This document shows, in pieces, positions 22,155 to 61,000 of a stretch of DNA of 64,000 nt. The position numbers were made by a program, and so were the translations under genes. The notes below the pieces were generated by a model, which had not been told where the DNA came from, did not search any database, and worked only from the letters and a program-made list of their open reading frames with translations. Origin of the DNA: Clytia hemisphaerica. Taxonomy: Eukaryota > Cnidaria > Hydrozoa > Leptothecata > Clytiidae. Positions within the stretch are counted from its first letter, which is position 1, and every line of letters begins with the position of its first letter. The DNA lies in assembly GCA_902728285.1 (NCBI GenBank), contig CACVBU010000603.1, positions 1,028,066-1,092,065 on the forward strand, given 5' to 3'.

Positions 22155-22203
22155 ATGATGTCTCATTGGATCCACAACTTGGCCATTCTACTTATTATAA
22201 CAG
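22155..22203 (+). CDS. Ig gene 1, exon 1 (signal peptide)
   Basis: Two adjacent ATGs (22155, 22158) open a hydrophobic run, HNLAILLIIT. The donor is ACAG|GTAAAG and the intron is phase 1. A longer upstream frame exists from 22071 but begins with a non-ATG codon, so 22155 is preferred. Confidence 0.6.
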
Positions 22204-25200
22204 GTAAAGATTCTTTCCATTTAAAAATAAAATCCAGTAGAGGATCACTCTGAAGCGCCTGATTTTCTTGTAGATAGTATAGTGAAATACTTATGAATAA
22301 ATTTTTATGATGCATCAGCCTTACAGTTAGGGAAAACTTTTGGCGCGTAAGGGTACAGGCAAGCGCAGCGTTCCACCTCCCAGTAGGGCACCGATGTACG
22401 TGGGGTCTCCCAGGTGGAATGGCGATAATGACAGTTGTAAACCCTCACACGTGAGGTCTGTCCATCTATATCTACTATATATTTCACTTTATAAACAACC
22501 TTGAATTTTGAATTTTGCGTAATTGGAAACGTATAGGCTCGAGCCAATACATAGTATTGACAAATTTTAAAAAATTCTCCAGGTTTTGATGCATCATGAA
22601 GATTTAGCTGCAAGTGTTTAATCATTAAACTTGGCTGGGTTGGGATATCTTGCAAAAAATTTCCAGGTTTTGGAAAAACGACTGACACCACGTACACAAG
22701 CTACAGTTCTGTTTTGCTCAGAGACTAAATTAAGCCATATTTGAATTCAAGTTTTACGTCACTATTAACCAATAGAATGGCTTCATTTTGTTTCGAAGCA
22801 CAACGTAACTGTTACCTGTGAACAAATTGTGAAAAATTCTTGCACTTATATACCTTGTGATTCCACATTTTAAATAATTGTTGGATTGTTCAAAAATAAT
22901 TTTCATGAAATTCAGATTTTTGAGTACTGCTGGAGCTCTCCCGCATTAATGTTCTGTAAAGTAAAGGGTGTTGCAAACAGATTGAAGTACTGTTAAAAGT
23001 ATATTTTTATTTAAGATTTCTAAACGTTTCTAAACTGCAGAATTGATAAATCCAAGAGAAACTTATGCAGACTTTGAATGCTCAGAATCCTCTTTTGGAA
23101 TCAGGGTTCAGACAGACCCTGGAAAACCTGGAAAACCTGGAAATATGATAAATTTTCAGAAAAATCAGGGAAACTCAGGGAAACCCAGGGAAAAATTTTT
23201 TTTCCCAGTCTGCTCAGGGAAACTCAGGGAATTTTATTTTTTGAAGAATGAATGGAAAAAACAGATTTAAAAGTTTTTTTAGTTTTAAAGTGTTTATTCA
23301 TATGCAGTATTTGTAGCTTTAATTTTTACCTTAGGTTTACCATTTGATTTGTGTGCCTTTTGTTTAAAGATACATCTCTTTTGACTCTGCTTAGTTTTTA
23401 TGGTTTGCTTGATACTCAGGGTAAAAAATAGAGAAAAAATAGCTAAAATGAGGAATTTCTCAGGGAAAAAACCTTTGAAAATTGATTAAAATTCAGGGAA
23501 ACTCAGGGAATTTTATTTTCGAAGGTCTGTCTGAACCCTGGGAATTCATCATAAATATTTTTAGTTTTTGGGCAACTGATAAATCTTCAGCAGTCTTCAA
23601 TCGAATATAGACAGTAAACATAAAATAAAAATTTAAAATAGAGTGCATCCTAGATTAAAATTATTTTTATATCTTTTTAGTAAATTTAGCAGTATGCCAA
23701 AGCTCATCACCTTGGATTGAAACATTCGCAATCGTAGGAAAATCAATAGAACTATCTTGTGATGTTGAATTCAGCAGTATCGTCTCCACAGACTGGAAGA
23801 GGAGAGACAATGGAACGAATGCCAAAGACAAATCTTTTTTCTTAGCAAAAATAAAAAATGGAAATCTTACTCAAGTAAGTATCAACACAGTGAAAAATAT
23901 TGTTTATTTTGTTTATGAACTTTTATTTCAAATGCATTGACCCAAGTGAGAAAACCTAATTTTTTGGACAAAAAAGTAACTGTAGACTTATTCAATAATA
24001 TGTATATGCCAATCTACTTAGTCAATAAGATAATTCTTATTGTTTATTCAGTTTCAATTTTCTTCTCATAATTTAACCTTGGGATTAAATCAGGCTGACA
24101 TAAATTTGTTTACTTTTAAGATGACTTTTAGACTTTTATTTAACTTTAAGATGAACCATGAATCTTTACAAAGCTTTAATTTGATATGGTTCTATCCCTA
24201 AATTTCTTTCGCCTATTGCATTTTTCCCACAAGCTATTCCTGCGATCGCACAGCAAAATAAACAGTTAAAGATCTTCTTCAAAAAAAGTTACCTAATTTC
24301 TAAAATTATTTGCTTATTTGCTACTTACTTATTCTTGCTATGCAATGAAGATTCTGTACCAGTGTTTTAGTGACAGAGAAAGTAGTGCAAATAGAATAAA
24401 AGGAGAAAACCTAATTCAAAGAAATAGTTAAAACTAATTCTTTCCAAAACCTCTCGAACTCCTTATAATAGAGGCTTAGGCACAGCTTAGAAAAACATAG
24501 TTTCATAACATTCTTTCTCCTTCAATCTTTAGACTGCAGATGAATATAAAAAGAGGCTTGCATCGAAAAATAACAATTTGATATTGAAGGATTGCAAGAT
24601 CAAAGATCAAGCACTTTATTATTGCACAGCACAACTTCTGGATGGACGTGTGATCACTGGTCGACCAATAAAACTTGTTGTCAGCAGTAAGTCAAAATAT
24701 AATTTAGAGTAAATTACAGATTTTTTTAGGAAGAAAGACTTCTCCTTGACTTTTCACATTATTAAATATAATCAATTTTCAAAAGCTATTGAAGTTCCTA
24801 GTGGGCAAAGTTTCCGGGTTGACCATAAATCTTTCTTCTCATATTATATAGATCTTACCTTCTCTGAATTTTAATAAAAGTAAGTTAAGTTTGTTCTTCG
24901 CCAACCTGTTGTATCCAGAACAGGGGGGGGTCAGGATCCAGATACCAAACCCAGGGCCGGGGGGTGGTGTCAATTTTTTTTTTCAAATTTCAAAAAGTCA
25001 AGTTGGTATTGATACCAAAATTAGGGGGTGGGTCCCCCTTTTTTTGAAAATTAGGGAATTTTTAAGTTGGTATAGATACCAAAATGAGGGGGTGGGTCCC
25101 CCTTTTTTTAATTTTTTCTGAATTTGAAATTGGTATCTGACTTAAAATGTTGTATAATGTAAGTATAAAAACTTATTTGAATCGTTTACACTATACCCTG

Positions 25201-26801: not shown

Positions 26802-26904
26802 GAACAGCAAATATGACGGCACGATTTGTTGCGAGTTCACTAGACCAGACTACAGGAAAGGAGTCATTAGCCCTGTAATTAAATTCTGGTCTTTAATGTA
26901 ATTA
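26680..26904 (+). pseudogene. out-of-frame remainder of the third Ig-like domain
   Basis: In the frame shifted by one base, TLWFQLEKP (C-strand), YDGTICCEFTRPDYRKG (F-strand with D-x-G-x-x-C) and SPVIKFWSLM are encoded, ending at a TAA at 26902. The switch point is near the A6 run at 26710-26715, just after GTPF. This is either a genuine one-base frameshift, an assembly error at a homopolymer, or a non-standard splice (a weak CTAG acceptor at 26675-26677 would keep phase). Confidence 0.5.
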
Positions 26905-33557: not shown

Positions 33558-33918
33558 ATACTTTTGAACTTGCCACTCTCCTTTAGGCACTAACTTATTC
33601 TTTTGTAAATCTGCTGACGCACGTTTTATTTTATATTAACATCCAAAAATTTTTTGAGGCCTTGAGATGTTCTTAACTTTTTGAGTTTTAAGCCTGAAAA
33701 TGTTCTTAACATGTTCTTATTTTCACCATTTTTTGAGTATTTTTGTGCATTTTCTTAAGAAATCGGGTGTTTTAGAGTCCGCATTGCCTTAATATTTTGG
33801 CCATTGAAGCCTTATGTTCTTATATATATATAGTTTGTTCTTATAAAAAACGTGTATACTTTTGAGCTCGCTACTGTCCTTTAGGCACTAAAACTTATTC
33901 TTTTGTAAATCTGCTAAT
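33558..33918. repeat. family A MITE (33617-33855) between 60-bp direct repeats
   Basis: The MITE starts ACGCACGTTTTATTTTATAT and ends TTCTTATAAAAAACGTGTA. It is flanked by diverged direct repeats, 33558-33616 and 33856-33918. Both contain ATACTTTTGA, CTTTAGGCACTAA and TTATTCTTTTGTAAATCTGC. These are far longer than a transposon target duplication. They differ at several positions, so the duplication is not recent. Confidence 0.75.
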
Positions 33919-39256: not shown

Positions 39257-39332
39257 ATGACAAAGACAATGTCATTTTTATGGATATACGTATTACTGGT
39301 ATCATTGGTGCATGGAATCTACGGCCTTGGTG
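39257..39332 (+). CDS. signal-peptide exon of the mini-gene, possibly shared with the receptor
   Basis: 25 complete codons plus one base (G). The hydrophobic core is FLWIYVLLVSLV. An in-frame second ATG at 39269 could also serve. The consensus donor and phase 1 match every Ig exon downstream. Confidence 0.55.
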
Positions 39333-40472
39333 GTAAGTTGAATGGATGGTTTATTTGAGTCTAAATGCTAACAATAGATCTTTTACAGGTCTGAATAAAT
39401 CATAGCGAATGTGAACACTTTTTTCGATAGTCAATCAGTAGTCAATCGTCTTCAACCCTTAGACATACCAACTGGCGACGCTCCCAAGAAAATGAAAAAT
39501 CATTAAATCGCGATCATCTATTTCAAAGTCATTTTTTTTCTCATGCAAAAATTGAAATTCGAGTCTTAAATCGTTTGTCAATGTCAAGAGTAACCTTCCT
39601 CTTTCAAAAGAGGGTATAAAATGGCAATTTAACGTTCAAGGCAAGCCTTGAAAAGTAGAACCTTCCAAATAACGCTAAAAAGCACTTTTATTGCGGACAC
39701 AATTGGATGCTGCTGAAAACACTGGCGGATTTAGGACAATAGAGTAAGTACGTCGGAAACATGCAAAGGAGTGCAACGCTCGTTTAATTTACAATGAAAT
39801 TACAATTACAAATCTCTTCCCCTGATGATTTCGACAAGGCCTAAAACCGCCTGTGGAAGAATAGATGTTGCTAGCCATTTTAGAGTACTAGACTCGACTG
39901 TGAATCTGCAATATGATTTTTAGGAATGAAATCGAAATCTAAAAGTTCTACTGCATATCGCAATTTCAAAGTTACATACTTATATGATCACAATATTTTT
40001 ATTGTTCTACTTTTTATAATACCACCTCCCCCACAAACACCTAAGAGTTTTTGTTTCATTATCTTAACACCTATATCTGTCATCACCAGGGCTATGCGTG
40101 TTGCTAGTACGTTATTAACCCCGTTGGATTAGGGTCTAACACTTAGAAATAACAAGTAAAATGGTTTTGTTTTGATAGCATTAGCATCGGATATCAAAAG
40201 TTTAATCTTTAAAAACACAACATTGATTTGAACAACGGTTCTCTTATTAGCGTCAGGCTTATCAGTTATCTCATTGTCAAGGCTAAGGCACTAGGGTAAT
40301 CTCATTGCGTTTAAAATCAAATTATAAGACTTGTCTACGAATTTAAAGAATTTTCTCCTTTTTCGTTGCAGAACAAATCACAGCTCTAGAGCTGTTACTA
40401 GAGCAAATTAAGAGCTCGAAAAGTGGCGATTTAGAATTTGAAGGACCATTCCGCAAAAAGCAAAACATTTAA
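39257..40472 (+). CDS. two-exon mini-gene for a 58-residue secreted peptide
   Basis: Exon 1 is 39257-39332, exon 2 is 40372-40472. Exon 1 encodes a signal peptide (MTKTMSFLWIYVLLVSLVHG, then IYGLG) ending in phase 1 at GGTG|GTAAGT. Exon 2 has a strong acceptor (TCCTTTTTCGTTGCAG) and encodes EQITALELLLEQIKSSKSG then DLEFEGPFRKKQNI and a stop. The mature part is about 33 residues with no cysteines. Its first half is a likely amphipathic helix and a basic RKK lies near the C-terminus. It could be a peptide hormone or effector, but no known neuropeptide signature (for example Gly-Lys-Arg amidation) is present. The same exon 1 is also phase-compatible with the Ig exon at 42766; both second exons begin AACAA and give Glu-Gln. 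Confidence 0.5.
39721..39852. repeat. family C MITE, copy 2
   Basis: Homologous to 3920-4050, with ends GGCGGATTTAGGAC and CCTAAAACCGCC that form an inverted repeat. It lies within the intron of the mini-gene. Confidence 0.75.
40372..40472 (+). CDS. mini-gene exon 2 (mature peptide and stop)
   Basis: 33 codons then TAA. Charged and balanced composition (E, K, S, L), unlike the T-rich flanks. Strong polypyrimidine acceptor. Confidence 0.5.
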
Positions 40473-40707
40473 GTGTTTTTCAATCAATAATCAGTACGAG
40501 CATTCTTTTTTCGACGAGCTGTAGATTAAGTTACTAAAATTTCCCTTAAACTTAAAATTTGATGGAATTCAAACATATAAACTTTAAAGAACTTGGCCTT
40601 TAATACCACTAATTTTCCATGTAATAGTCTAGAATTTTGATTTAATTTTACTTCTACTTTTAACATTTTGTCGCCATTTTGAACTTGCTCATTCTTATTG
40701 ACGCTAG

Positions 40708-40800
40708 AATAAAGTCTGTGGTTTTTAATGTTTTTCTCTTGTTGCTAGTATAAATATCTCTTAAAATGCATAAGCATGCAAACTGAAAAATTTCAATAAA
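40708..40800 (+). terminator. poly(A) signals of the mini-gene
   Basis: AATAAA at 40708-40713 and again at 40795-40800, some 240 and 330 bases after the stop codon. This is consistent with exon 40372 being a terminal exon. Confidence 0.5.
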
Positions 40801-41241
40801 ACAGAGAACACATTAGAATCTAATCGTCCTAGATCCAAAATGGCGCTTACTGATTTATTAAAAGTTATCTATATTTTTTAAATATTTTAACAGCTATAAT
40901 TTATTTCTTTGCGTAAATCAGGCATGCTTTTCCTGTGTTCTGCTCATTTTGTTAACTAAAAACTCATAAATTTTCCTGCCTGATCTTAACTACGTTCAAA
41001 AAAGGGTCAGATGACCAACTATCTTGCGGTGTATCTTAATCTTTTCCGGTACTTTTGCAATCTGGAAATCTATTGAGCTTCTAATTGTCAGCTCGTCCAT
41101 TTAATTAATGACTTTGCATATAAATCATTCAGGATAATTTACTTAAAACACATATCCTTAGCGAGAGCTAAGTTTCCTTGGAAATCAGCGTAAATTACAA
41201 CATGCCAAATAAAATAATGATCTGGAAATCACTAAGCTAGT

Positions 41242-41421
41242 AACAGTTGATGCTCTCTAATTCGTTTTTCAAGGGAAATCGGATTTTCGTCGAGTAAAGG
41301 AGCGTCTTTAATAATAGAGCGTCGTTTACGAGAGTTTCTTGTTGACGCGGTGACTTTCAATATTACCGAATAACGGAATGTATCGAATAGTAGAATCTCG
41401 AATTCGAGAGCGTCAGACTTA
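41242..41421. repeat. diverged family B (pogo-like) MITE
   Basis: Left ACAGTTGATGCTCTCTAATTCG is nearly identical to the intact copy at 6258. The right part reads TCGAATTCGAGAGCGTCAGA. The interior carries several GAGCGTC/TATTCGA words. A minus-strand frame across it is an artefact of the repeat. Confidence 0.65.
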
Positions 41422-42765
41422 TGTGATGATACTAATTGAGCAACTTGGAAATTCACTAGAGACGAGATCACAAAGTACCTTCAAAATGTTGACCTAGATC
41501 TACCATATATTTGCAAAGTCATGAACAGTTGACCTCCGTGGGATTTTTTAGGTCAACAAAAGACAATGTTGGCATTTCGAAATGATTTTCAACCGTGTTT
41601 TAATAACCTCATGCAGACTTTAATCACATCAAATAAACCAGACCGACTGAATAGATGGAAGTTCGAAATACTATCAATCACTTCTAGTAAGAACCAGGCT
41701 ATGTTAAGCACAGTATTGTATCTCAAAAAAGAAGAGGCTGGTTTCCATTCACTATAATAGACTCAATGTTCTTTTTTGCAGTCCAAGGCACACTACAATT
41801 TTCATTCAAAATGTTCATCAATTATTAAAATTATCGAACATTGCAACATTGTTTTCCTTAGAAACTATCCGATCTTGTGAATAGGAAAACTCCGAAACCC
41901 AACGTTAGCTTAGCGGGATACCATATTGTTTCATTCAAAAAAATTATCATACTGAATTAAAATAATTCAAAGAAGATTTTGAAATATTTATACTGGTGTG
42001 GTCTTTTTTATGTCTTTCAACTTGAATTTTGATAATGTTTCAATAAGCCTCCTTCGGTCTTGTTTGTGATGGTCAGAACCCTATGTCTCGTTTGTCCAAA
42101 ACTATCAAATACTCTAATGGACAATAATACCCAATGTTCTAATTAATAATGAATAAGCATTTCCCAATGGGACTCTAATAACCCTAAATTGTTTTAGGGG
42201 AGGAGCCTAGAGACAGGACATGCTGACATTTTGACTTTCAGAAAATACAAACTTCGAGCACGTGACTTTGAGTAGAATTCATCCTTAGCAGATTGCTGCC
42301 AGAAACTTTTGATCTAAAGCGGTCTTTCAATCTCGACTTTGGAATGACATAATTGATCCCAGCAGCCCTCTTAAATTATCCCCTTTAAATAGCCTAACCT
42401 TGAAATAACCCTATGTATTTTGTCCTCATTACGACTCGTCAACACTGGCCTCCTAATATAATGAGCCATCGACTCTCTAAACCTTAAAATCCCATTGCTG
42501 CGATGGCACAGTATGAAAGAATCGTTCATCAGCAGTATTAAAACAGAATGAAATCAAGATGGGAATTAAAACTAGGTGATTTCACCAGCATTGCCATTAC
42601 CTCCCAGCTCACAACGTCAAAACAAGCCTTTTTATCGTCTTTTTAACGTTCATGACATCCAAATTTTATACGTTAACACAACGCTGCGTGTTAACTTATC
42701 TCAGTCTCAGTCACTTTATACTTTAGACTTCTCTAAATGGAATACGTACTTTATCTTTTCTACAG

Positions 42766-43041
42766 AACAACCATCATGTATCGGTGCTGTTGAGAAGCTA
42801 CTGGCTTTGAACGGTAGTTCCGTCGTCCTTCCATGTCAAGCTAAAGGACATCCTATACCGAAAATCTCATGGCTTCGTAAAGTGGAGGGAGCTAAGAAAT
42901 GGCATAAGCTAGATGACAGATTCTCAATCACTCCTAAAGGATTGTTTCTTAAAGACGTGGAGAAGGAAGATACAGGACAATATCAAATCACGTTGACCAA
43001 TGATGTATCAACAACCACTTTAACGGTCCAGCTTAAAGTCC
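42766..43041 (+). CDS. receptor exon Ig1 (F-strand cysteine missing)
   Basis: Acceptor TTATCTTTTCTACAG, donor GTCC|GTAAGT, phase 1-1, 276 nt. Encodes EQPSCIGAVEKLL, VVLPCQAKGHPIPKISWLRK and EKEDTGQYQITLTNDVS. The I-set pattern D-T-G-x-Y is followed by Q-I where Y-x-C is expected, so the usual disulphide cannot form. An extra cysteine at PSC near the N-terminus could be an alternative partner. It lies 15.5 kb from the next exon and may be optional. Confidence 0.75.
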
Positions 43042-46000
43042 GTAAGTGAAAAATTACTTAACTTTTATTATTTCAGTGGTTTCTAGTCTAAGACATGCGA
43101 TGACGATTCGTGATCGGTTTTCAGTCTAGGTGAAATCTATAGTTTGTGAATATCAAAGCAATATCGACTTTTTTCACTTGAAGACCTGCTTTAAATAACC
43201 ATCCAGATGTTCGAAAACTAGAGATTTCAGATTTGGTTTTCACCAATATTTATACTTGTTCACTTCTTCTGGCTGTACACGTTAGTTTTCAATATAAACC
43301 ATCAACTGTTTTTCAATAACTTCGATTTCGATATAAATCCACCATTGAATCACGGCAAACGATTGGAACCCAATAAACTCCCATGCTGACAAAATGACAG
43401 AGTCATCTACATAAATTTATTCTTGTAAGACGGCTACAATTTACTGTCAAAGGAACCCTTTTCATAAACATTCTCAGAGGTTTAATTGGTTTTACACCTC
43501 ACTGTCTGTTCATGAGATAGCCACTGTTATCAAAACAAAATTACCTTAATCTTTTCACTCGTATCTGACTGTATTTGCTTTGTTTTTTTGGGGGTCAGAC
43601 AAAAATGTTTTTTTAGAAGACATAAAATGATTCTTTTTTTGAAAACTTGGGAATGGAAGACAGTTTCCCATGCTGTTTGTTTTCTTTTCTATATTGTCTT
43701 TCTCTGGTGATCGGCCAATCAAAATCGATTTTGTCGCTTTTCCAAATTCAAAATGGTAACTTAGTTGTGTGAGCGTGATCTTTTATGTTAAAATTGGAGA
43801 AAGCCTGGTAAAGCTGCCCTGTTTCAGAGATTATTTTTTTGTGTCTTCTTAAGATACAACAAAAGGGAATATGTATCAAAATATTTCCAAAAGGAACATA
43901 TGGACTAGTCATCTTTCTTTAATACAAAATTGAATTTTAAATGGAAAAAAATGAAGAATTGAAGATAAAGCAAATGAAAATGAAGAAAAAGAAGAGGGTT
44001 TAAAAGGCTTATCTTCTGAAAATCTTTTCCATCTTTCTCTCAATTTAAAGTATAGTACTGTATCAGATTTTCCCTCCACCCATTTCTCTATTCATTTTTA
44101 TTGTGTGTATGTCTTTTCATTCGAGTTCCTTCTCTCTGTTTTTTCTAACACCTGCATTTCATCACTGCACTGCCTTAGAATCTGGACTAGGAAGTACAAT
44201 AGGGAACCTCAAGCTCTATCCACACAATTCTGATTGAGGTTAAATGGAAGCATGGCGATGGGCTCGCTGGGTTGTCTGTGTCTGTGTTATTATGTACTCT
44301 CTTCTTGGTTTGATTAAGCACTTTCTTATTTTGGTCGGAAGATGACACATTGATGCTTTTTAATCGATATTTGATTCTAAAAGCTTGTCTACCACTAATA
44401 GTTTTTCATGTTTTTATCAATTTCGTGTTTCGTGACTTTTGCTGCAAATTATACAATTTTTCTCTTCAGTGATTCCTCTAATCCTATTCTCTTAGCTTAA
44501 TCAGCAGAGAGGAGGAGTCGCTCTCTAATTAGTCAAAATTTCAATCAAACAAACTTCCAGATTCCCACAAATGAAAAACTGATTTTTAGGAATGGAATTT
44601 AGCTCCTTGAAGTAAAGCTATACTTTCTATTGTGTCTGGTTGTTCAGTGTTTTTATGGTCCCAGTTGGGGACCAATTTGACTTCAAAATAACTTTCCATA
44701 GTCTTATGTTATATCTTTTCTGTTAAAGATATAGAATGTTTCCAAGTTGATTTAGCCTAATTTTGACACTCAGCATGCTTCTACAAGTTTTCTCTTATTT
44801 CAAGAAAGAACACAAAAATATTTCTTTTTATCCCTCCTTTTAAACTTTGTTTCTCTTATTTAATGAATTTCGATGGTCGAAGGATGAAAACAGTGACTAA
44901 CATACTTAGAGAGTTCAGTTTTGGGATAGCTGATGTTTGGATTGTTTATGGTAATGGGTTTTAGAAAGATCGTACGTGCTATATGAAATAACTTGGGTCT
45001 ATCAACCCTCCGTCCTGAAAAGTTAAAATTGAAAAAATCCTACTTACAAAGTTTGGTTTTTTTTCATCCTCTGCTTTCCTTGGCTTCTTCCACCCATCAA
45101 TTTCTCATTGTTAAAAGTCCCTTGCTTATATCTCGATTGCCAATCTAAAGATTTAGAGAAATAGAAAATTATTGTTTTTAAAGGTATGGTAGAAATACGA
45201 GAAACCAGTAGAGAAACAAAATAATGTGGTTGCACTCAGAACTATCAATAAAGATTAAGCCGTAAATCACTTTGTATAACCCCCTGAAAACATATCATGT
45301 AAGCCTTCAAAACTAGGTTGAACCAGGGGGTTATGGCATCAATCGAATTCCAAAATGGGGTATGAAACAGAGCAATCATTTAGCACCTCCATGCAGTCAT
45401 TTTCACAAATTATTTAACCTCTCCAACAAAAGTAACTAAAGAATTTCGATAAAAATTCAATGATCTTGAATTTCAATTCAGCCATGGTTCACAAGTTGTT
45501 GTTATTCTTTGAACGAAAAGAACTCTTCAACATTTTTCTACCTAATCATAGCTTTTGCGATTATTGACGAATCAAGTGGAACATAGTATTGGCAAATTAT
45601 CTATATTTTGAAGTATTGACAGTGTCTATGCTTTGTTATGGTTGTCAGTCTTTTGTAAAAGAAAAATGAATTTTCAATTGCATAGGCTACGCTGACTGCT
45701 GTAATTTTTCATACCAATTCTACATCTATAATTTATAGGGTTGGAAGAAAGAGTCTACCCTCTTTTAAGCTCTAAATGTGGGGATAAAAATGAAACAGTC
45801 ACCTACATGTAAGGAAAAATTAGGGTTAGAAAATCTGTTTTTTGTTGACTACAACAGTCAACATTTGAAACCTCGATTTCAGCAGATTTTATTTTTATGA
45901 TGAATCGATCGATATATTGGTATCATGTGTGTTTATACAGAGGCTACTACTACGTATGGATTTAAATTTTTTTATTTTCAAAACAAACATTTTTTCTGAT

Positions 46001-49000
46001 GTACAAGATTTTTTCTATAATATTTTTTTCTCTCTGTATCTATCTCTTGCATGCTCTCTTCTTTTGAACTATTGCTACATTTTTTCTGTAATAATAAAAT
46101 TTTGAATATTTTGGTTGCGTCTAAGAATAATTAGCTGGTTATCTGGTGACGTTAACTGGTGGTGACACATTGCTGCTCTTGAATTATTTTATTTTGACAG
46201 ACTATACATACCTTGTAACTTTAGGATTCTTTTCTGTTTCTTTCTTACACGTTTGTCAAATTTCTTATACAACCTAAATTTAGATTCTCAGCCCAATCTC
46301 GAAACGATTTAAACTCTATTCTTTAATCTTTATAACTCTCCCACTTAGTTTGAAAGAATCAACGATTATAACATGAATCACGAGTTAAATTCTCAACTAA
46401 AAACTGAGTCTTCCATTTTTATTTCCTGATTTAGTGGTTAAGAAGTTTACATTGGAACTAGATTTTTTTTCTTTACACTGTGGCTTTTCCAATCCAAACA
46501 AAAAGGGAACACGGCATCTCCAGTGGTCCTCGACATCTTTAATCTACTGTTTAAAATCCTGGATTTGTTTTCTTGACAAACAAAACAGTTAAATTCTATA
46601 TTTTCTTGCATCTTTTTTATAAGAATCAAGAGTCTTTATTTTCTAATTCTTGTATTCCTTTCGCTTTTATGTGCACTGTATTCCACTTAAATTAACCCAA
46701 TTTTTGTTATGTGTGAAAGTTTGTCCGTTCCTGGAAATTTAACTTCGTCCCTTTTTTACTTTTTCACCTTCGCAGAATTGTCTATCTTTTACTTTAAGAA
46801 TATTTCACCTCCCTTCTCAAATCAAACCCCTTTCTTATAAAAAACATATTTTGACACACATAGTGTAAATGACTGGGTACTCATCTGCTTCGTCAATGAA
46901 CGTCTATACGGTTGATGAATCATTAGAAAGTGTGTGTGAGTGAGTGAATGAGAGAGCCATGTTTTCTGTCTGGAGGGATACGGATTCGTCATTCGGCTTT
47001 CACCATGGTCCTCACTTCTTGAGAATGCTATCCGGTGTCATCAATGTATATTTTGGAACGAATGACCTTTTTGAGAGTTCATTTTTTGAAGTAATAATCT
47101 TGCTTCTTTTAATGTGATACTGCAGTTGAAATAGCAAGCGGTCTTTTAAGAGTAGCATGGTCTTTTGTTGTAAATATCGATGCCTTTCAAAATATCTTCT
47201 TTTTTCCGTTTCAAAACAAGAAATAGACAACAATAACCAGATAGAAACCTATTGAAAATAAACTTGGATAATTTTTTTGGATTTTTTGGATATTTTTATG
47301 GAATGGACTCGACATGGATTTTGATTCTCTGCATGGGTTTGTTCACCATCAAAGGTAAGTCTCTTTCACCAGTTATATTTGAATATTGAAAAATTTTGCA
47401 TTTGCCAAATAGGTGTTATGATAGTGTATTCAATTAATTCCAGGGGGGCGATCTTTATATCAATTTTAACCTTTTTTTATTCAGTCTCTGAAATGAAGAT
47501 TCAAGGCTCAAATTTTTTTTATAGATATTAAAAAAAATCTTGGGATCTAAAACTCATTCATGGGCCTAAATAATTTCTATTTTCTTTGTATTTTGATATG
47601 AACAACACAAGGAAAACACATTCTGATTATCAGATAAAAGTCACTTGGCCATTTACTTTTTGGGTTTCTGATTTCCCCCTTTCTCACATTAAAGTCTCGC
47701 TACCCATTAGTATCCCCATGTTTTAAGAGGGCAAAGGGGCACACTTATTTTAATTCAATTTTCACCTCTTTTTTTCCTTCTTTTTTCTTTTCCTTCTTCA
47801 TCAATTTTTTGCTTTTTCTGTTTGTCGGTAGGTTACTGACTGAAGACCGATGCTTCAAAAAGGGGTTAAAAAAGGGTCTTTTACCCCTTTTAAAAAAAAG
47901 CTAAAAGTAATCCCCTATTCTTACTTCTTTACTGCGCATTGATCAGAACTCAAAAAGGGTCATAGAGAAGAACATTTTCTATTTATTTTTACACGCACTC
48001 GGTTTCCCTTTTTTTTTCTTCCATATTTTTGGTCCCACTGTGCCATTTTTTCTAGAGAGCTGTTAGTTTTTTGTGTGACTTTTTTTGATTTTTGGTTGAA
48101 CTATACTTCCATTTCAATCGAGTTTTGAATGGGTTGTGATTTCTGAGCTCTATCTTGTTCTGGGATGTTTAATATTTCCAAATTTTTTGGAACTCAGGAA
48201 ATCAGAGTTTGGACGTCTAACGTATCATATTCTTGAGTTTGTTTGAAAATTGTCATGTTTTATATGACGTTTATTCTTTTGTACATAATCCGTTATTTTA
48301 CATTTCCAAATGTACCTTCAAAGTATAGCTTCTAGTTCAAAAGGTGGTTTTAAAGTATATCCTATTTCACTCAAACTTTCTACTTTAAACATCACTGCTT
48401 TGTTCAGTACCAAGTGTTTGTTTTCTTTATGTCAATGACTTTTTGAGAGTGAAACAAAAAAGGTATGGGTTTTGTTGACATTTGTAGTGACAGTTTTGAA
48501 AAATGATACCCTATCCTATCTTTTGTTGGCACAAATAAGGTGCTAAAGAGTATGGCTACGTGTTAATTATTAATCGTTGTTTTGTCGTTTCCACTTGATG
48601 ACTCAACGTGATGGATTGACGGCGTCATCTCCCCCTTAAGAGCCTTTCTACGTACGTATTACGTACGTCAAATTCATAAGATTTTATCCCAGACCTAGTA
48701 TCAGGCCCAAGAACACAAATATTACAATACTTGAATTTTGCATTTCACCCGGTTCTCAGATTCACTGTAGATTAAAATTCTACCCTGGGTTATTCTTTCC
48801 CAAGGTCTTTTACTCTATTCTTTATTCTAAGCTTTACTCGTTTTAAAGACTTTTTGTACGTAAATCTCGTGAAGTTTCTCAGCAAGACTTTCAACAAAAA
48901 TCCTTTCACCTTCATCCAAAAATAGTATCTTTTTTCAAAAACCAAAACTTGAATTTTCGAATGAATTTTGAACACAAAAACGTACATCTCGTCTAAGAAA

Positions 49001-52000
49001 GGCGACTTTAAACTTATAATCTTCTACTCAAAACTTGATTTGGTTTCGGAAAAGATGAAAAAACAGCTCCTCTTAACTACTCCCCTCTAACCACGCGCCA
49101 AGCAGCTTGAGAAACATAAAACCTCCCAAAAATACCTTCAAAAAGCGAAACCCAACTTACCTCCTTGATTCCAATTTTACCAAAGTGTTAAATCGTATTT
49201 AACTTAACACCTTTTACAGCCTTCCTTGATTTTAAACTTTCATCAACTTAATGTATTTCCAAGACCCTGGCTCAGACAAAATGACATTTGAAGGACTCCG
49301 CAAATCAATAGAAAGCTTATCTGCGATTTAAGAATTTTTTTGATAGTCTTTGCCCTCTACACTCTTGTCATCATTAGACTATTGATTTCTATAGAACTCG
49401 AATCTGGTTTTCATTGTTCTTATTTTTTAACATTTTTTTCCCTAAGAGTTTCTAGTTACTGGTGGTCAGAAAGGTCAGAGCTAATCTATGTTCTCTGTGT
49501 TGAAATCTCTATAAAAATCTTGGTGGAAAGGTTTGGTAGTGGCGATGACCAATCCAGTACAGTATAGTACTGGTCAATTTCTTGAATGATGCTCTCATGA
49601 TTTTGTCTGCCGTATTGTTAAAAACTTCAATGTTTTTCCAGTAGATTACTGATTTTTTTAAGTTTTTTTTATAGTAGATGATATTTTTAACGAGTGTTTA
49701 TTTTATTTGATCTTTAATTTCATGACGATTTACGAATTTTTCAGCTTGGTGCACGCCAAAATAGCATGAAAATATTTTATTTTACACCTTGATTGTTTTG
49801 ACTTCAAAAGTTCACCTCGCTTATGTTTGTTGCACTTATTCAGATTACCTTGATTGAAGTGCAAGATATGAAAATATAAAATTTTTTGAATAAAAAAAAA
49901 ACTTTTTACATTTTATCAATCTTTGATGTTCAAAGTTACTTGGAGATTTGACATTGAAGTAACCTTCTACTGACTTTTTTCATATCAGCGCTTAAAAGGA
50001 TTGGTGTTTCTACTTGTATACTTTCGTTTTTAACGTATGTATTCTTTTAAAAATCATATTTCTCTTTTAAAATTTCCAGATGTAACAAAACGCATTCAAA
50101 GATTCATGTTCTAGCATGCTTCTCTCAGTTTCAAAACAAACTCACTTCTTTCACTCTTGTTCCCTCTAGGACCTCTCAAACTCTTTTATTCCTCTACCAT
50201 CTTGATATAAATATGTACATTCTTTTAGCATTCATTTAACATACCGTACGTCTTTAATCCATCATATGGACTAACTTTTGGTTGTTCTTTCTCTTAGACC
50301 CTTTACTGTATACCTATGGTATTTTCCTTCAATGCTAAACTGTAATGTATCTTTCTTTCATACAAGGATAACCTTCCGACAGTTGATGTCTAAGGTGTAT
50401 TTTGTATGCGTCGTCTAAAAAGCCATTTTTTATGAGGGTGCTATACCGAGAAAATTCTTCATTTTTCTAACTTGAGCAGAGTTTAGTGCTTCGACAAACA
50501 GCTGGCTTTATTGCTATTGGTATATTTTAGTAGTGACATCAGAAAGCTGTATTAATTCTTAATGTTTATTTAGGTATTTGTGTGATATTCAGACATCTTT
50601 AGTCGGCTCGCGGGAAAATAGTAGTAGAGAGTTAATTCGGTGTTGACTTTTGCTAAATGGTATTGATTTTTGATGCTATTCGCGAGAAATAGAAATAATT
50701 TAATTTTCGAGAGATCTTGCATTGGTGCATGGTTCTAGTCAGAACCGTCTGTTGCTGTTTTTTGATAAAATATGTGAATGAAAGTTTTAGTTTTGGCTAG
50801 TTTGGTTTCTGGCTGATTGATTTAGAAGTTTGACTCATTACTAATCACGGAGAATTTTTTGTCTGCTTTAGTCAGGCTATTTGAGTTCAAAATCATCTCT
50901 GGAAAATTTACGGTTCATTTTTTCCCAAAAATAATTAAAAGTTCGGATTGACATTATAATGGGCTTTTCCAGAAAAAAAACCGTGCACCCCCTGTTGAGG
51001 AGGTCCAACCTTTTGTGACCTACCCCCTTGGAATTCCAGGCAATTTTAGGATCATACCCCTCTGGAATTCCAAATGTTTGCAATTTTTCAATCATTACCC
51101 CCTTGGAATTCCGCTTATTTTTGACGGATATTCGTCTACCCTTATGGAATTCCACTGCATTTCAAACCTTACCCCCTTGGAACGGAAATTGACCTCCTCA
51201 ACAGGGGGTGCACGATTTTTTTCTGGAAAAGCCCAATCTCACGTCAATTCTTTTTGTCGGTTTTTTTGATTTGTCAGTTTCGAATATCCTAAATCTATAT
51301 TGGACAAATTACTTGGAGTAAATTAGCACTTAAAATACATTTAATCTATTATTATTATCTTGCGTTGGTGCATGGTTCTACTCTAGTCAGAACCGTCTGT
51401 TGCTGTTTTTTGATAAAATATTTGAATGAAAGTTTTGGTTTTGGCTAGTTTGGTTTCTTGCTGATTGATTTAGAAGTTTGACTCGTTGCTAATCACGGAG
51501 AATTTTTTGTCTGCTTTGTCAGGCTATTGTCATTGTTGTGTTTAATTTGAAATTTTTGGAGATTATTCACGAAAACTGATTGATGGTAGATCATCAACAA
51601 AAAACAGAGAAATATTTTTCATTTCAAACGTAAAACGTGGGGTAAGTTTGTTATATAGACTCAATGACGTTTCTTATCGTCAGCCACTTGATCAAGGTCA
51701 CGATGCAATGACTCTAATCACTATGAGTTTCCAAAAATGATCATAAGGTGTCAAAACCTCAAATTCTCAATCAGTGTGTTTCCTCTTTAAACGAACTCCC
51801 CTCTCGTGTCGCGTTTTAAAAGATCTTAATAAAGCTTAAAAAACACATGGATAATATACTATAATCTTAAAAACTTCGCGATTTCAACTTTTTTTCTTCG
51901 ATTTCATCACTTTCAACAGACAAGCTTGTAGATACAATATGTGAAAATCTTGACTTAAACTTTGTGTGTGTGTGTGTGTCTGATGAGAGGTGTCAAACGT

Positions 52001-55000
52001 GTTGACGCTTGGTCTGTTAAAGAAGTCATGAAAGATCAATGAAGCTTACCTTGGTCAAGTTGTAAATCTTCTTTGTCTGGCTTCCTGATTCACTTTATTC
52101 TCATCCTGTCCTCGTGTGTTGTTTGTGAGAATTTTCTTTTTGTTGTTTTGGTTATGGTGTTGCTTTAGAGATGACTGCGATAGATTCTACGTGGTTTGGA
52201 TCTCACTTGAATGATCCCCTCGCTTTACCGTACTTGTACTTTTATTAATCCTTTTCAAATCATGTATTCGGTGTACTGAAATTGACTGAATTTTCCATTG
52301 CCATTAAGACTAACAAATATACTGACATAGAAACTGTGACAAGTTGACAACAGCTCTTGCTCGACGCTTTTTGGACTCATAAAGGAAACAATTCTTTTAG
52401 ATGACTGTTGACCGGGCTTTCCATAGTGTTGCGGAACCTATCGCAACTGTCTCAGCTGAGATTTAATGTAATCATCAAAATATATGATGTTCAAATAAGA
52501 TTTCGATTATTACGTAATTTGATTATGAGTCAGGTATCAAGAAGGAGGATCTATCAGCAAAGACCAGTTATCTTGTCAACTTAAGATAACATTTTCGCTA
52601 CAGTAGATTTTCAAAAAGGCACAACCCACTTTAGTAAAAGAGGGGCGTCACCTTAGCATTGTAACCACAAGTAGTTATCTTGTTAAACAATTTATTTAGA
52701 TTAGCTCTAATAATTGGCAATGATGAAAAGTCATCAAAACCCACCAAAATCATTGCTTTGCACTTCTCCATACATATATTTAATGATCTAGAAAAGGAGG
52801 AAGATAAGCCATGGTTTCCTCTTTCAATTTCCAAAATCTTGGTTAGTTTGTCAGTGAAGTTCAATTATGTACTTTGCTCCAGATTACACCTTTCATATAT
52901 TCTCAATAGACCTTTCAACTTGTCGTCTACTTAGTTTGTAATGTGTATGCTATAGAAAAAAATTACGTCGAAGACTTCCTATATCCCATAGACATACAAG
53001 ATTGCAGTAAATAATAGCTCTTAATTACTCTAGTGTAGCCTGTCCTGTTTTCTTCGCGGCCCCTCATTTATCTCGTTAGCTAGGATTTACTAGGATTTTC
53101 TTTTTGTATGATAACTGATTTGTTTTCAGTGATTTAGCAAGATTTCATGTTTACTTTGCTGATAGATCAGTAATTGAAGCGATCTAGCTCATAGAGCAGT
53201 ATTACTCGATTTATGTTTATGAGTAGTATATAATCAATATGCGAGTAGTTTATTTCGTATTTGACATAAGTTTTGTCTTCTGGGCACCTGTCGACATTGT
53301 GGCATATTTACAATACTGTAGGATGAGATTTTGAAAAATGGTATTAACTGGAGTATGGGTAGTTTCTAATGATAGTATTTCCTTTTTTTCTGGATCGAGA
53401 GAATTGTGAGAAAGTACTAGTCTAGTCTATTTAGGTGCAGAATTACCTTCATTGCTAGTAAGAACCAGGCGTTCAATCATTCATAAATTTCTTGCTCGTT
53501 GTATAAGTTTTATTAAGGAACTCAGTGTAACACATAAATCTCAATATATTAAAAAATAGTATTATCATTCGTCAAGCAGAAAATAGTCGCTAGTTTCTTT
53601 TGAGATTTGTTTATACCGCTTGTGGGCACGTGATAATAGCGAGACGTTTCCGTGCTAAACTGATTACGTTTTCTTTGAGTCAGTGTGACTTTTTTTACAT
53701 ATATCTTTCTTTTCATTTATGATAACCAAAATATTTAATAAATTGATACTCTCTAGTTATAATAATAGCCCGTATAGGCTACGATGTAGTCGCGGCATTT
53801 CACTTTTAAAATCCCATTTTCAATTTATAGCATATTTTCATGTCGCTGCCCCCTTTCTTTCAAATACATTGTTATGAGAATTTCTCAGCATTTTCAATAC
53901 AAAAGGCTTATTATCGTATCAATTTTTTCTTGACAGTGTGTGAGGGTAGAATACTAGTTTTCATTTATTTTGGGTTTTTATTTTTCATCACAGTATTATA
54001 CTATGAAAAATCAGATTAGAAAAAGATATTGGGAGATAGTTTGTACCTACGAGTCTCGCAATTCTGTACTTCGAAGACTAGTATTTAACAGATTTCAGCC
54101 ATTTTGTAGTCATTTTGTTCTTTAGGGCGTTCCAGTCAGCCGTAGGCTAGATGTGTCATAGAAAGGTACGTATTATAAAGAGAGAGTTATATCATCCTTT
54201 GATCACACGCTCATTCGAAAAAGAGCTCAGCTGTACTGAGTTTTTTCATCAATTGATAATCGATGCAGGTATACCTTCTCAAAGAGTTCTCAAAGCTTTA
54301 AGCGCTGTCATTCACTATCGTTCTTTTGAGAAGAAAGTGTTTTTAAATATTACAAGTTAATCGCCTGTACTGCTATATAGGACGGTTTGTAATCTATACC
54401 CCAGCGGTGTCGAGTAGACTCAGAAGAGATTTTCAAAGTCTTTTTGTCATATAGATACATCATCAGATATGGTAGCGTTCAGGAAGTTTGAAACTGTTTC
54501 GTTTCTAGTTTTTAGTTCTTTAGAAAGGAAAGAAAGGAAAGACTATTAGGGCTTAGTTCTCAATCTAGTTTTGTGTATATAAATAAAATTTACAGTCAAT
54601 TTAATCTTGTCATTGATTGAATTTAGACTTGTTATTTCGGCTAGGAAACTGCTATAAAGTAAATGGAGCTTTAATATATTGGTTTGTAAATTTTAGTTAC
54701 CGCTTTTTAAGAAAATATTTAAGTTTTGAATAACTTTAGTTTAAAAATATAGTGATTCTGAGCATTCCAACGTGATGAAAAGCTGGTCAGAATTTTAGCG
54801 AACTTTTAAATATAGTCCTTCCTGTCTTTGTCTGAGTATTATTCACAATACCCAATACAATATTTTTAGTGTAAATTTAAGTTTGACAGTTTTCTTTATT
54901 TTTAGTATCCAGTATTCAGTCATCAGATACAATAATAATGCCATAATGAAATAATCATTCTACTCAGCTTGAGGCTCTTTCAAGAAGAAGTAAAAAAGAT

Positions 55001-58000
55001 CTTTAGATATTACCGACAAATGTTCATGTTCCATTCACGAAGTTTCAAGCCTTTTGTTAGTTTGACAGATACAGTCAAGCAATGTTTAGTTCTCCAAAAG
55101 GTGTTTAATATTAAAGTATTGCCCCTTTCGATAGAAATGTCAAAATTAGTCAGAATGTGTCCCATAATTTATAGATCACCAGCTCTTCTAGAATTTCTAG
55201 TTTAAATGATGATTGATTATTGCTATATTATATAAAAATGGAAAAATAGGAAAAATTGAAGATTTTAGCTTTAGTGAAGAAGTTGTTGCTAAAGTTAGAT
55301 ATGTTTGAATTTTTCAAAGTTCATTTAGAATTAGATCTCAAGTTTAGGTAGGATCTTTAAAGTACCTGGTTTTTAGCATATTATATAATTATATGATGAA
55401 ATATTGTTTTGTTTAACCTGCTGTCGATTTTTGTCAAGTTTTCAAGTATTTTTTGACTAATTTTGTCATCTTCAAAGTTTGACTAAGTGTCATTGAAAAA
55501 CAAAAGTCAAGAATCAAAAAAATATTGCAAATGGGAAATTTCAACAACGTCATCAATATTGTGTAGAAGTGTTTACCAGTTAAAGAGGTTTGTTTAGATT
55601 AAAAACAACAAGAGCTTCAACAGTCACGTGATCATTTTGAACTTTTTTGATTGGTCGATATGATATTTTTCTTTGATTTTGAATCAAAATTTGTTACAGT
55701 GTTTTGATAATGATGTTGGTATGGTTGGTGATAAGTGCAACAAGAAGTTTGAGTGGGTATAACTGTAAGTGGAGAAAAGAAAAAGTTATAGTATATCAAA
55801 ATATTCAGATAATATAGTTGGATTTAGTATCTTTTGTCAGCTATGGCAAGACTATCTAGAGGCTTAAAACAGTATTTTCTAACCTTTTTTAGATCAGTTA
55901 GTCTTCATTTTCAGAATTCAGTTTTGAATAATGTCATAAGCTTAAAAGCTAAGTTTCGTTTTTTGTCGATACAAACATCTCTAAATTTATATTTGGTATT
56001 GATTTAGAAACATTAAAAACTAAATTTGACAAAACTGCATTCAGTGACTTAGAAATATAACTTTAAATGACGACCTGATACAAAATACGACCTTATAACA
56101 TATTACAAAATTTGACATAACACGAATTACATACGTATAACATGGCAAAGATGGAAAACAGATTACATATTATTGTTGTTATCTTGTTGATTTCTATAAC
56201 TCCAACCTTTTGGTGTCGAAAAAGTAGGTATCTTTTATTTCTTATATTATTCTTTTCTTCATAATATGTGTTATAATGTATTACATATAACACATATTAC
56301 ATTTCAATTTTTTCTTTTGAGATTTCTCACTTGATATTATAAAAACATCTCGCAGTAAATAAACGGAAATGATTTCGGGAAATCGGAATGTATTGAGAAA
56401 ATCAAGTGTTTCTTATTTAATCACATCTTTCGCACTTATGTTTGATTTTTTGCATGTCCCTTTTTTGTGCCTGTCATTAATTATGTTTTTGTGAGATGAA
56501 AAAATATTATGTTATGCATCATCTGTTTCGGCTACCCATTTTCGTGTGAATGTTACATCAAGTCAATTTGATTTTAATGATCTGACTTGTCACTTTCAAA
56601 ATTGCATTGAGTTTTTAAATTGTTGTTTTAATTCTGATTCTTCAAACCTGTAAAGGCTATGGCTAAACACACTGAAAGATCTCTCTTTTTCTTCAATTTT
56701 TCAACCAGTCATTACCCCTTTAACGTTTTCGCTTTCTAAATATATAGGCTCTTATTCAAGTCCATCAATCATGACGTGATCTTGGCTAGCCTAAAAACCT
56801 CAGCTCAGGAAATATAAAAAACCTCAATTTTCATTTTTCATGTCTCGGTCTTCTTTTCTCACATAAGACCACCATATGGTTCTCTTCTCACTCTTTTTCA
56901 ATTTTTTCTCATACTTTAATCTGCTTTCCAATTTTTTCACGTTTTTTCTGAACCCACTAATTTTACCACATGGCCTGCTATTCTTCATAGTTTCATAGTA
57001 ATATGTTTCTATATTTTTCTTCATTCATGAATTTATAATCCTCTTTTTGGAATAAGATTTTGATTTATAGAACATCCATTGTCTTAACTGATTACGGATG
57101 ACTGACATATTATTTCAGTTTTAAATCTCCAACAACAAACCAATTTGAATTTGGCTGAATTTTCTCACACTGCCAAATTGATTTTAAATCAAAATGTTGC
57201 TTTTTATTACCACGTGGGCAAAAATGTTGAGATCTGTATCACCTAGAATGCACTTCCTTCAATAGATTTTTCCAGTGCCCTATCCCTTTCCATAAGCTGT
57301 CTTTATCAACAAGAATACTTAATCATTGACAAAAAGATTGGGTGAATTTTTACAAATTTTCTAAGGATTCAAGTCATCAAGCTAATACATTTGATTCATG
57401 CTTGACCTTTACTTAAACTTTAAAGAAGTCAACTTGTGTTTTTGAACTTTACTATAATTGTATTCGAAATTGTTGATGACATAATGCAATCAGATAACAC
57501 ATATCATTTCATGCTATCTTGCAAGAAAGTAATCACGGTAAAAGTTATAATGATTACCAAAAAGAAGAAAAGAAAAATTTAACTTTGAAAGAAATTTTAT
57601 CTGAAGCACTTTTTGTCTACAAAAAGAAGATGACCTAAACCCTGAAGTTCTTTTCTCTTAATTAGCGATCATATGTGATTTGTTGGTTTTTTAAATGTCA
57701 TATTATTGCATACCATTCTCTACGATATAATACTGTATTACGGTTTGGTCATGTATTAGAATACTATAAAACCTATATGGGGTTTGATATGCACTAAGTT
57801 TCCTCAGAGAATTTTAGATGAACACTTCGAACATAAAATGTCGGCTATAGTCTTAAAGGCAAACTAGAAATTACAGGAGTCAAGATTCAAAATCGACTTG
57901 AGTTAAAAAGGTTTGGCATCTTCTTTTGTCCATGTTCTTATAAAGTTTTCACTATTGCGGATTTTTGTAATTGGTATACCATTAAGTAAATAAGCTTTCA

Positions 58001-61000
58001 CTTGATCTATCGCTTATCGATAGTCATTAAGGATGCTTCAAGCATTCAAATTGCTAATTTTCGTATGGAAGTTAAGTGGGTTCATTAATGTAATCCTTCC
58101 TTATAGTAGTTGAGTTCCTACTGGTATTCCGCATTTTGTTAAAAAAATCGATGAACAAGTGAACAGATCACAAAGTCTGATCCTGTTTTTAGTGATTATT
58201 TTATTCTTGTTGTTCTTCGACGAATTTTTGGTTTAGTGTTTTTTTGAATCTTTCAAATGTGTCTCGATGTTTCGACTTTTGTTGATTTTTGTCTCGATTG
58301 CCTATTCGGGTGAGTGATTTTGTAGGGGGTATTAGGCCTTCTTAAATTTCTCTTTGGGAATCCGGGAGTTGAACTTTCCTTACTAACTCTTGTAATCATT
58401 GATTGAATTCCATTTTTTTCCAGCTGTGAATAATGAAACAAAGCTAACGTGTACAGCCGATAAATTATAATAAACAACAACAAAAAACAATTTCGAAAAA
58501 AAAAAGTATGAAACTTTTGTTTACAATTAGTTTGTATCTTTTACTCCCAACAGAAGTGAAGCCTGCCAACTATGAAGTCGCCGTTGAAAACGAAGAAGCT
58601 TTTCTACCGTGCGGGAAACTCAAAGTGTTGCCAGGTGACAGAATCGTTTGGAAGAAAGATGGCGTCAACGTGCTCGAAAAATACCGTGATCGTGCATCTG
58701 TTGACGTGAATGGAACATTATTTTTGGATCCAGTGAAACGAGGTGATTTGGGATTGTACCAATGTTTGGTGACTACCAAGAGATTCGAAGATGAAGTTAC
58801 CATCACCAAGACCATGTTCTTGAATGTCAAATGTAAGAATTTTTTTTTTCATTCTATTCTTGATTCTTGGTTCTTCATTTAAAAATGTTTAATCCGGTCA
58901 ATTTTTTACTTTCACTGAAAGTTTTTTTATCTGCTAACCAACCGACACTTGAAATTTCATGTAATCACCAGTACGAGTTTTTCCTTCAAAGTCTTTTTTT
59001 GAAGATCCTAAAAGACAAAAATCTATTCCTTTTTATCATGAACGAGAATTAAGATTTTAGTGTATTATGTTTCCTTTTTTCAGACGTCCCAGTCATCATC
59101 TACATCTTACCGTCCGTCAAAATCTACGTTCACAAAACGGCCGTTCTTCCATGCACGGCTCAAGGTAATCCTGGTGTCAATTTTCGTTGGCTGTTCCCGA
59201 ACGGAGAACGTATCAAGAACACACCCGACAAAAAGTATTCTGTATCGAGCAACGGTTCTTTGATCATCCGGAATATTGGTACCACGGACGCGAAAAATTA
59301 TACTTGTGCACCGTACAGTGATCTGGGAAGCGGTGAAAAAAGACATACGGAACTGATCGTCTTCTGTAAGTAATTTAATCAACAAAACAAAAAACAACAA
59401 CAAATATTTCACTCTAAATTTAACAGACTTTTCTATAATCTTTTTACATAGGGTAAGTTTTGTTAAATTCTACGAAATACTTGTCTAACCGTGGAATCTG
59501 TTCATTCTTAGAGAAAAAGAAAACTTGCATCATGTTTTTTATAAATTTCCTTTTTTAGCCCCACCCTCGTTTTTCAACAAAGCACAAGGAACAGTCGACG
59601 TTCTTGAAGGAGACACAGTCACACTTGACTGTGCATCCGGAGGTATCCCTAAGCCTGTGATCACGTGGGGTCACAATAACAAGAAAATCAAAGATGGTGA
59701 ACGATTCAAAACAGAATCCATCGGCAAATTGAATATCCGTGACGTGCGGGGCTCAGATGCGGGATCTTATGCTTGTATTGTTCGATCTGAAGCGGGTGAA
59801 ATTCACAGGTCAACTACATTGGTTGTTAAAGGTGTGTTTATACTACTCGTTTTTTTTAGTTCTTCGTTTATTTGGACTTTGAAAGTTCTTTAATGCCTTT
59901 GGACTTCATATCTTTACTTCTGAGACTAATTTAGCGTAGAATTAATATTATCGTACGAAGAAACATTATTTTAAACCTGAATATTTCTTTCTTGTACTAT
60001 AGGAAAACCTGGTACTCCAACCTTGATCGAAGTCAGTGTCGAAAGTGGCGTTGTGTTCGCTCGCTGGTTGCGCGCGTATGATGGTGGTTCGCCTCAATCT
60101 TTTGAGATTTGGGGACGACTCGCTAGTGAGGATGATTTTTCATGGGAAAAGATTGACGGTATCGAAAGCAACATCAAACAAAAAACAGAATTCAAACAAT
60201 TTCAGTTATCAAGCTTGATCAAAAACGTTCCGCAAAATACAAAAGTAACTTATTTCTTCAGCGTCCGCGCAACCAATGTGCGTGGTGGAAGCGGATTCAA
60301 AAAGGTTGGAAAAGTTGTCATTTTGCCATCGGAAAAAGACGTTATGGTACCCGGAACTCTTAATGACTTTATTGTTGGTAAGTTGTCGATTTAATATTTT
60401 GAGAAAGAAAAAACTCGTCTCCTCCTATCTGCCCTCTCAAGTCATGATTCCTTACTTTAGTGAATTTTCCATTTCTATTTCTTCTTAAATAGTTTCCTAT
60501 TACATTTCTTTCTCTGCAGACAAACCTTTCCCACCATACAACGTCACTGTGAACGCAACACGTGCCGGTTACGTCATCACATGGAAAGAAAAGCTCGTCC
60601 CAGGCCGCCCACCTGCCAAACAAATCGTCGCCCAATACCGCCTTCGTGGCTCGGAACACCAATGGCGTGATTATATTATACCAAAGGATTCTATCAAGGA
60701 TCAAGCCGAACCGGCCCGTAAACGTCGATCTGCGACTCCATCCGGGGGCCCATCGCAAGGGATTATGGTCAAACCAGATGATCTTAAAGGCGATGACCGA
60801 GATGATTTGGAATTTCAAGTTGTGGCTGAAAGTGAGAATGGTGTGCGGAGTGAAGCTAACAAACCCAAGTTTGTGTTGACAGGTACCATTTTTATTTTTA
60901 CTTCTTCGGGTTCTCGAGTATCAGAAATTTACCATGGGGATGAAGGGTACTCCTCGTACTTCAGGTATAAAAGAAATAATTCACTTAGATTCTCAAATTG

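Follow-up and report, generated by a model that had tools for sequence, protein, structure and literature searches.

Can a single receptor gene begin at more than one leader exon, so that the choice of start decides which immunoglobulin (Ig) domains the protein carries? This question is raised by a locus of the hydrozoan Clytia hemisphaerica, in which short exons encoding hydrophobic stretches lie within and before a long intron of a putative receptor gene. The window, that is, the whole stretch of 64,000 nucleotides that was analysed, spans positions 1028066-1092065 of its contig and has a GC content of about 33%; it belongs to a eukaryotic assembly of 417 Mb in 951 contigs. All features described below lie on the plus strand unless stated otherwise.

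The receptor gene and its long intron

The window contains a gene with four Ig exons, two fibronectin-III-like exons, a transmembrane exon, a short exon and a long tail exon, which is best explained as encoding an animal type I membrane receptor of the Ig/FN3-like kind. The Ig exons are all of phase 1-1 and comprise Ig1 (42766-43041; Pfam I-set, 1.9e-14), which is bounded by splice sites, Ig2 (58554-58832; Ig_3, 2.1e-07 in a scan begun at 58508), Ig3 (59084-59365; Ig_3, 2.6e-12) and Ig4 (59559-59831; I-set, 2.9e-17). Ig domains usually carry a second cysteine; Ig1 has none at this position, where the sequence reads YQI. PDB alignments to contactin-2 and RPTP delta extend into the first fibronectin-III-like exon (60003-60377), which gave no FN3 match in Pfam and has a predicted structure that is strand-rich but of low confidence (mean pLDDT 51.7). 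The second (60520-60882) has splice sites, lacks any Pfam match and is assigned by its position alone. A hydrophobic segment followed by RKRKNRK, called by eye, marks the transmembrane exon (61765-61959), and splice sites and frame define the short juxtamembrane exon (62181-62217). The cytoplasmic tail exon (62507-63998) has the top codon score, and its frame stays open up to the window end. Compared with its own genome, the tail exon matched only itself, and no paralogue was seen. The best 60 of 203 PDB matches come from a wide range of Ig-repeat proteins, including titin, Robo2, Dscam and contactin-2, and name no orthologue; the Ig3 exon, used as the query in a viral_contigs scan, retrieved no relative.

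Ig1 is split from Ig2 by an intron of 15.5 kb (43042-58553), while the exon coordinates give the other short introns of the gene lengths of 142-289 nt, with one of 882. Concealed Ig exons within the long intron were considered and rejected: a model built from only the four Ig exons scored nothing below E 1 between 43.1 and 58.4 kb. Beyond its own four exons, the best matches of this model had E values of 0.04-0.6 and included four exons of a separate gene at 23.6-26.5 kb. Of the 32 best coding segments listed for the window, none that lies in the intron reaches the level of shuffles: the scores there are 12.6 and 11.3, whereas the top segments of 30 shuffles average 14.0.

A cluster of leader-like exons exceeds chance

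Potential leader exons were defined by a uniform scan as reading frames that begin with ATG, run for 12-32 codons without a stop, contain an 8-residue core with a mean Kyte-Doolittle value of at least 2.0 and end at a splice donor in a given phase. With GTRAGT as the donor, positions 33001-58553 yield four matches in phase 1 and none in phase 0 or phase 2. Shuffled versions of this region yield 0.28 on average, and none of 300 reaches four. The four matches are 39257-39332, 47303-47354, 55710-55764 and 58267-58309, each with the reading frame, donor and phase that the initial annotation had assigned to it. Three of them fall in the intron (43042-58553), against 0.16 in shuffles. Elsewhere, positions 1-33000 give none, and scanning the entire window on the minus strand gives 0, 0 and 1 in phases 0, 1 and 2, respectively. 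Across 20 parameter settings, phase 1 always yields 4-6 matches, a number reached by at most 1 of 200 shuffles; phase 0 stays at zero throughout, and phase 2 ranges over 0-1 for GTRAGT and over 1-5 when the donor motif is shortened to GTRAG. Viewed from the donor side, 4 of the 14 GTRAGT sites in the region close a phase-1 leader-like frame; the corresponding figures are 2.2% for positions in general and 41 of 1470 for GT dinucleotides.

Real genomic sequence served as a second background. Twenty-two 10-kb stretches of the same contig, read on both strands (440,000 strand-bases; two stretches adjoin the window), contain 158 GTRAGT sites and 3, 4 and 1 matches in phases 0, 1 and 2, which corresponds to 0.23 phase-1 matches per 25.5 kb. 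When donors were instead scored with a matrix at a threshold of at least 4 bits, the region contains three matches (39257, 47303 and 58267) against 0.27 in shuffles, and the intron alone two against 0.19, with 3 of 100 shuffles as high. These three matches are less striking, because the real background contains nine in phase 1 per 440,000 strand-bases, or 0.52 per 25.5 kb. A lax threshold of 0.3 bits, which is as low as the weakest donors of the gene itself score, gives eight matches in phase 1 against 2.0 shuffled and three and two in the other phases; such counts are noisy, since the minus strand of the window yields 1, 1 and 7 in phases 0, 1 and 2. The sole donor-matrix match in positions 1-33000, at 22155, leads in phase 1 into a split-Ig exon at 23681 and has a good cleavage site. 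This match is suited to be the leader of a separate Ig gene, and the filter can therefore find plausible leaders. With a region and defining features that had been picked in the initial annotation after they were seen, the leader cluster exceeds chance: its frames, phases, splice signals and excess over both shuffles and real genomic background are established.

Individual candidates and their splice partners

As had been claimed, every Ig exon of the receptor is entered in phase 1, and the same holds for the fibronectin-III-like and transmembrane exons. The candidates at 39257, 47303 and 58267 end in G, which together with the AA of Ig1 or Ig2 gives Glu, and they keep the frame because all Ig exons are of phase 1-1. 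The candidate at 55710 ends in T. Its junction with Ig1 or Ig2 forms a TAA stop codon and its junction with Ig3 a Tyr codon; joining to Ig2 is thus rejected, and the exon would be usable only if Ig2 were skipped.

Signal peptides were judged by hydropathy and a simple -3/-1 cleavage rule only. This rule accepts 39257 when joined to Ig1 and 47303, 56142 and 58267 when joined to Ig2, and it fails for 55710 with Ig3 and for an in-frame ATG at 58508; it adds little, because 155 of 355 chance candidates pass it as well. Synonymous-codon scores were trained on the receptor and have little power on 14-27 codons. Start codons were judged by the context rule for the -3 position.

The candidate nearest to Ig2 (58267-58309; MFRLLLIFVSIAYS plus one nucleotide) is the best leader for a 3-Ig form. 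Its donor, GTGAGT, scores 8.5, the predicted cleavage site at the Ig2 junction lies between AYS and E, and the intron to Ig2 would measure 244 bp, similar to the other short introns of the gene. Its synonymous-codon score is reached by 1.4% of 587 chance candidates. The start context is poor (T at -3), and an out-of-frame ATG lies 10 nt upstream. The distal candidate (39257-39332; MTKTMSFLWIYVLLVSLVHGIYGLG plus one nucleotide) was found by both scan criteria, has a GTAAGT donor and, once joined to Ig1, offers three acceptable sites for cleavage. Its start context is likewise poor (T at -3), although A occupies this position at a further in-frame ATG (39269), and an out-of-frame ATG precedes the exon by 13 nt. 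This exon could serve the 4-Ig form, a mini-gene or both: it can also splice to a possible alternative second exon at 40372-40472, which has a pyrimidine-rich acceptor and a short reading frame ending in a stop. The acceptor-plus-frame pattern of this mini-gene occurs 9 times in 19.2 kb, where 11.1 are expected from shuffles, and is no rarer than chance. The codon score of its second exon (0.10 per codon) is about that of Ig1 when left out of the training (0.11), and the joined peptide has no match in Pfam.

The remaining candidates are less well placed. The exon at 47303-47354 (MDSTWILILCMGLFTIK plus one nucleotide) was returned by both scan criteria, and its synonymous-codon score is reached by 0.2% of the 587 chance candidates. 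Its second residue is acidic, the stretch ahead of the core lacks a basic residue, a single marginal cleavage site is predicted between LFT and IKE, and an out-of-frame ATG lies 5 nt upstream. The near-perfect donors noted in the initial annotation hold up on the intron side, but GTAAGT at 55710-55764 (MMLVWLVISATRSLSGYN plus one nucleotide) reaches just 2.0 bits once the exon side is counted. This exon yields no cleavage site by the simple rule when joined to Ig3, and an out-of-frame ATG lies 50 nt upstream. The weak candidate at 56142 (MAKMENRLHIIVVILLISITPTFWCRK plus one nucleotide) is indeed a leader-like reading frame, with its donor corrected here to GTAGGT after position 56223 (56142-56223; score 2.2); it has the highest core value among the candidates listed (4.25) and no other ATG within 60 nt upstream. 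Codon scores distinguish none of 39257, 56142, 55710 and 22155, which are reached by fractions of 0.49, 0.49, 0.84 and 0.28 of the 587 chance candidates, respectively. A further exon proposed at 34162 was rejected as a leader, since it was absent from the candidates of any phase at the thresholds used (limit of 32 codons).

We also considered that the leaders were copied from one another or derive from a common repeat, and rejected this. Their flanks do not match one another, and neither flanks nor intron found a match in a 220-kb genome sample that does contain repeats matching the window elsewhere; this sample covers about 0.05% of the genome, and rare repeats could be missed.

The cluster is therefore real as a statistical excess, but its members are unequal: 58267 and 39257 are best, 47303 is plausible, and 55710 and 56142 are weak. 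A clear position within the receptor gene can be assigned to 39257 and 58267 alone; support for 47303 is mainly statistical. The exon at 55710 and the 2-Ig form that it would produce are weak proposals, because splicing to the nearest Ig exon would create a stop. Any phase-1 leader exon could belong to another secreted protein, and 39257 may serve the mini-gene, so that each leader's tie to the receptor is a candidate link.

Readings of the locus and known alternative-promoter receptors

We favour, with a probability of roughly 55%, a receptor gene equipped with two or more alternative leaders, the distal one leading to a 4-Ig and the proximal one to a 3-Ig form, and with 47303 as a possible third start. 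A distal promoter ahead of 39257 would produce a transcript in which this leader is joined to Ig1 (42766) and Ig1 in turn, over the 15.5-kb intron, to Ig2, giving a 4-Ig receptor. A proximal promoter ahead of 58267 would produce a 14-codon leader that is joined across the 244-bp intron to Ig2, giving a 3-Ig receptor without Ig1, and 47303 might likewise lead into Ig2. Because signal peptides would be removed on secretion, the forms would differ lastingly in whether they carry Ig1 and in their promoter. Gene anatomy is the basis on which we infer transcription, the exons joined by splicing, peptide cleavage and any role of Ig1. The phase-specific excess of leader-like exons in and before the Ig-splitting intron lends support to the alternative leaders of the initial annotation, which had proposed alternative promoters for 4-, 3- and 2-Ig forms; the 2-Ig form is the weak part of that proposal. 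Overall, its observation is partly confirmed and its interpretation partly supported. A true array, in which five leaders (39257, 47303, 55710, 56142 and 58267) with their own promoters serve one receptor, 4-, 3- and 2-Ig forms appear in different cells and 39257 is shared with a short secreted peptide, seems improbable to us, and the notion that different leaders bring different cell-type expression is speculation.

The receptor might instead use a single leader, 58267 or 39257, with the other leader-like frames unused or part of nested small secreted genes such as the mini-gene at 39257-40472. We regard this as unlikely, although several points speak for it. Many secreted proteins have leader exons of phase 1, so the excess by itself does not tie the leaders to the receptor, and the Ig gene at 22155 is likewise served by a phase-1 leader. 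Receptor-trained codon scores could also miss low-GC genes, as the upstream Ig exons u1a and u2a reach -0.12 and 0.08 per codon (with a training set that had a wrong tail frame), and the second exon of the mini-gene resembles Ig1 in its score. Against nested genes stand the intron, where no coding segment among the 32 best listed rises above shuffle level, and the mini-gene pattern, which is as frequent as chance predicts.

A different start for the short receptor is offered by the ATG at 58508 (58508-58553; MKLLFTISLYLLLPT), which the initial annotation did not contain and which would make a leader exon unnecessary. The reading frame of Ig2 extends upstream as far as this ATG without a stop; Lys is the second residue, and hydrophobic residues follow. 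The acceptor at 58553 would then serve the long form only or be unused. However, the stretch coincides with the polypyrimidine tract of the Ig2 acceptor plus AACAG, which tends to translate as hydrophobic residues anyway, its core value is just 2.11, no cleavage site follows from the simple rule, and its synonymous score is ordinary (reached by 0.33 of chance candidates). We consider this start doubtful. Least probable is chance, by which T-rich introns would supply hydrophobic frames from which a reader picks. Background sequence does contain a GTRAGT phase-1 match once per 110 kb of strand, and the lax threshold produces two per shuffled region. Four matches against 0.23-0.28 in real background and shuffles, all in phase 1 at the main setting and with 4-6 in phase 1 over 20 settings, nevertheless lead us to reject chance alone, and a receptor gene needs at least one leader.

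The favoured reading, a receptor with alternative leaders, would likely be a further example of an established type, for which the open-access literature offers precedents among adhesion genes of vertebrate nerve cells; at the sequence level, at least two candidate leader exons precede shared domain exons, as in that type. ROBO2 belongs to the Ig/FN3 receptor class, and the Robo family has five Ig and three FN3 domains and conserved cytoplasmic motifs. The present gene has four Ig and two FN3-like exons, to which upstream Ig exons in compatible phase could in principle be joined, and Robo2 is among the best 60 of 203 PDB matches. ROBO2a is described as using an alternative promoter more than 1 Mb upstream, with exons that replace the leader exon of ROBO2b (PMC7010700). 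The candidate arrangement here is similar in that an alternative promoter would swap the leader exon of an Ig/FN3-type receptor; it differs in that Ig1 would be gained or lost, while mature ROBO2a is reported to carry only four extra residues and to have its first two exons more than 1 Mb upstream (PMC7010700).

The IgLON genes Lsamp, Ntm and Opcml are described as having twin promoters, 1a and 1b, whose first exons encode alternative signal peptides (PMC5288359). Both there and here, alternative first exons with leaders precede shared Ig exons, those of the present locus being candidates from sequence. The processed IgLON N-termini are said there to be identical, whereas the distal form here would add an Ig domain (PMC5288359). 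The receptor also falls outside the IgLON family, whose members have three Ig domains and a GPI anchor (PMC5288359), as it has a transmembrane segment followed by a long cytoplasmic tail exon. A comparable logic is that of vertebrate neurexin alpha/beta, for which two promoters in one gene, one upstream and one downstream, are described; their products have a long or a short ectodomain, and both carry a signal peptide (PMC2570956). The present gene would share the upstream and downstream starts and the long and short ectodomains, but with Ig domains in place of LNS/EGF domains and possibly three starts (PMC2570956). What is unusual here is the presence of at least three candidate starts and their location within an Ig-splitting intron. 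If the favoured reading is true, gene models with a single start would miss isoforms concealed in long introns, and promoter choice would keep or drop the outermost Ig domain, extending the logic of neurexin alpha and beta to another class of receptor.

Ig-superfamily exons upstream of the receptor

A second Ig-superfamily gene lies upstream of the Ig receptor gene, at 22155–26901 (+) in the window. Its leader (22155–22203, +) fits, with a phase-1 junction, onto a set of split Ig exons at about 23681, 24533, 25953, and 26288 on the same strand. Inspection by eye puts the probable end of the gene close to 26.9 kb, but the exon boundary at 26440, which exits in phase 1, would also be compatible with splicing to Ig1 of the receptor (42766–43041). 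This Ig1 has YQI in place of the canonical second cysteine and differs in that from Ig2–Ig4.

A leader-like exon in the background

One of the background stretches, L017, contains a leader-like exon at 5559–5595 (+), MKTLVLVLLFTT, with a GTRAGT donor; this exon may encode the beginning of a further secreted protein.

Repeated sequences

At 19671–20014 (+) of the window, about 168 bp are duplicated in tandem, the copies being 86% identical. This duplication contains a charged open reading frame (19889–20008, +), whose codon score of 22.2 exceeds the top value among 30 shuffles (19.1). A dispersed repeat family with a unit of about 250 bp occurs in both orientations, and its window copies (6490–6750, 8480–8740, 15661–15917, and 33620–33856) are 72–83% identical; it is also present in the sampled genome, for example in stretches L015 (95%) and L002. 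Within the 15.5-kb intron between receptor Ig1 and Ig2, at 50714–51528, a sequence of about 170 bp occurs twice in direct orientation, the copies being 93% identical and flanking a shorter inverted repeat. The pair resembles the termini of a small transposable element.
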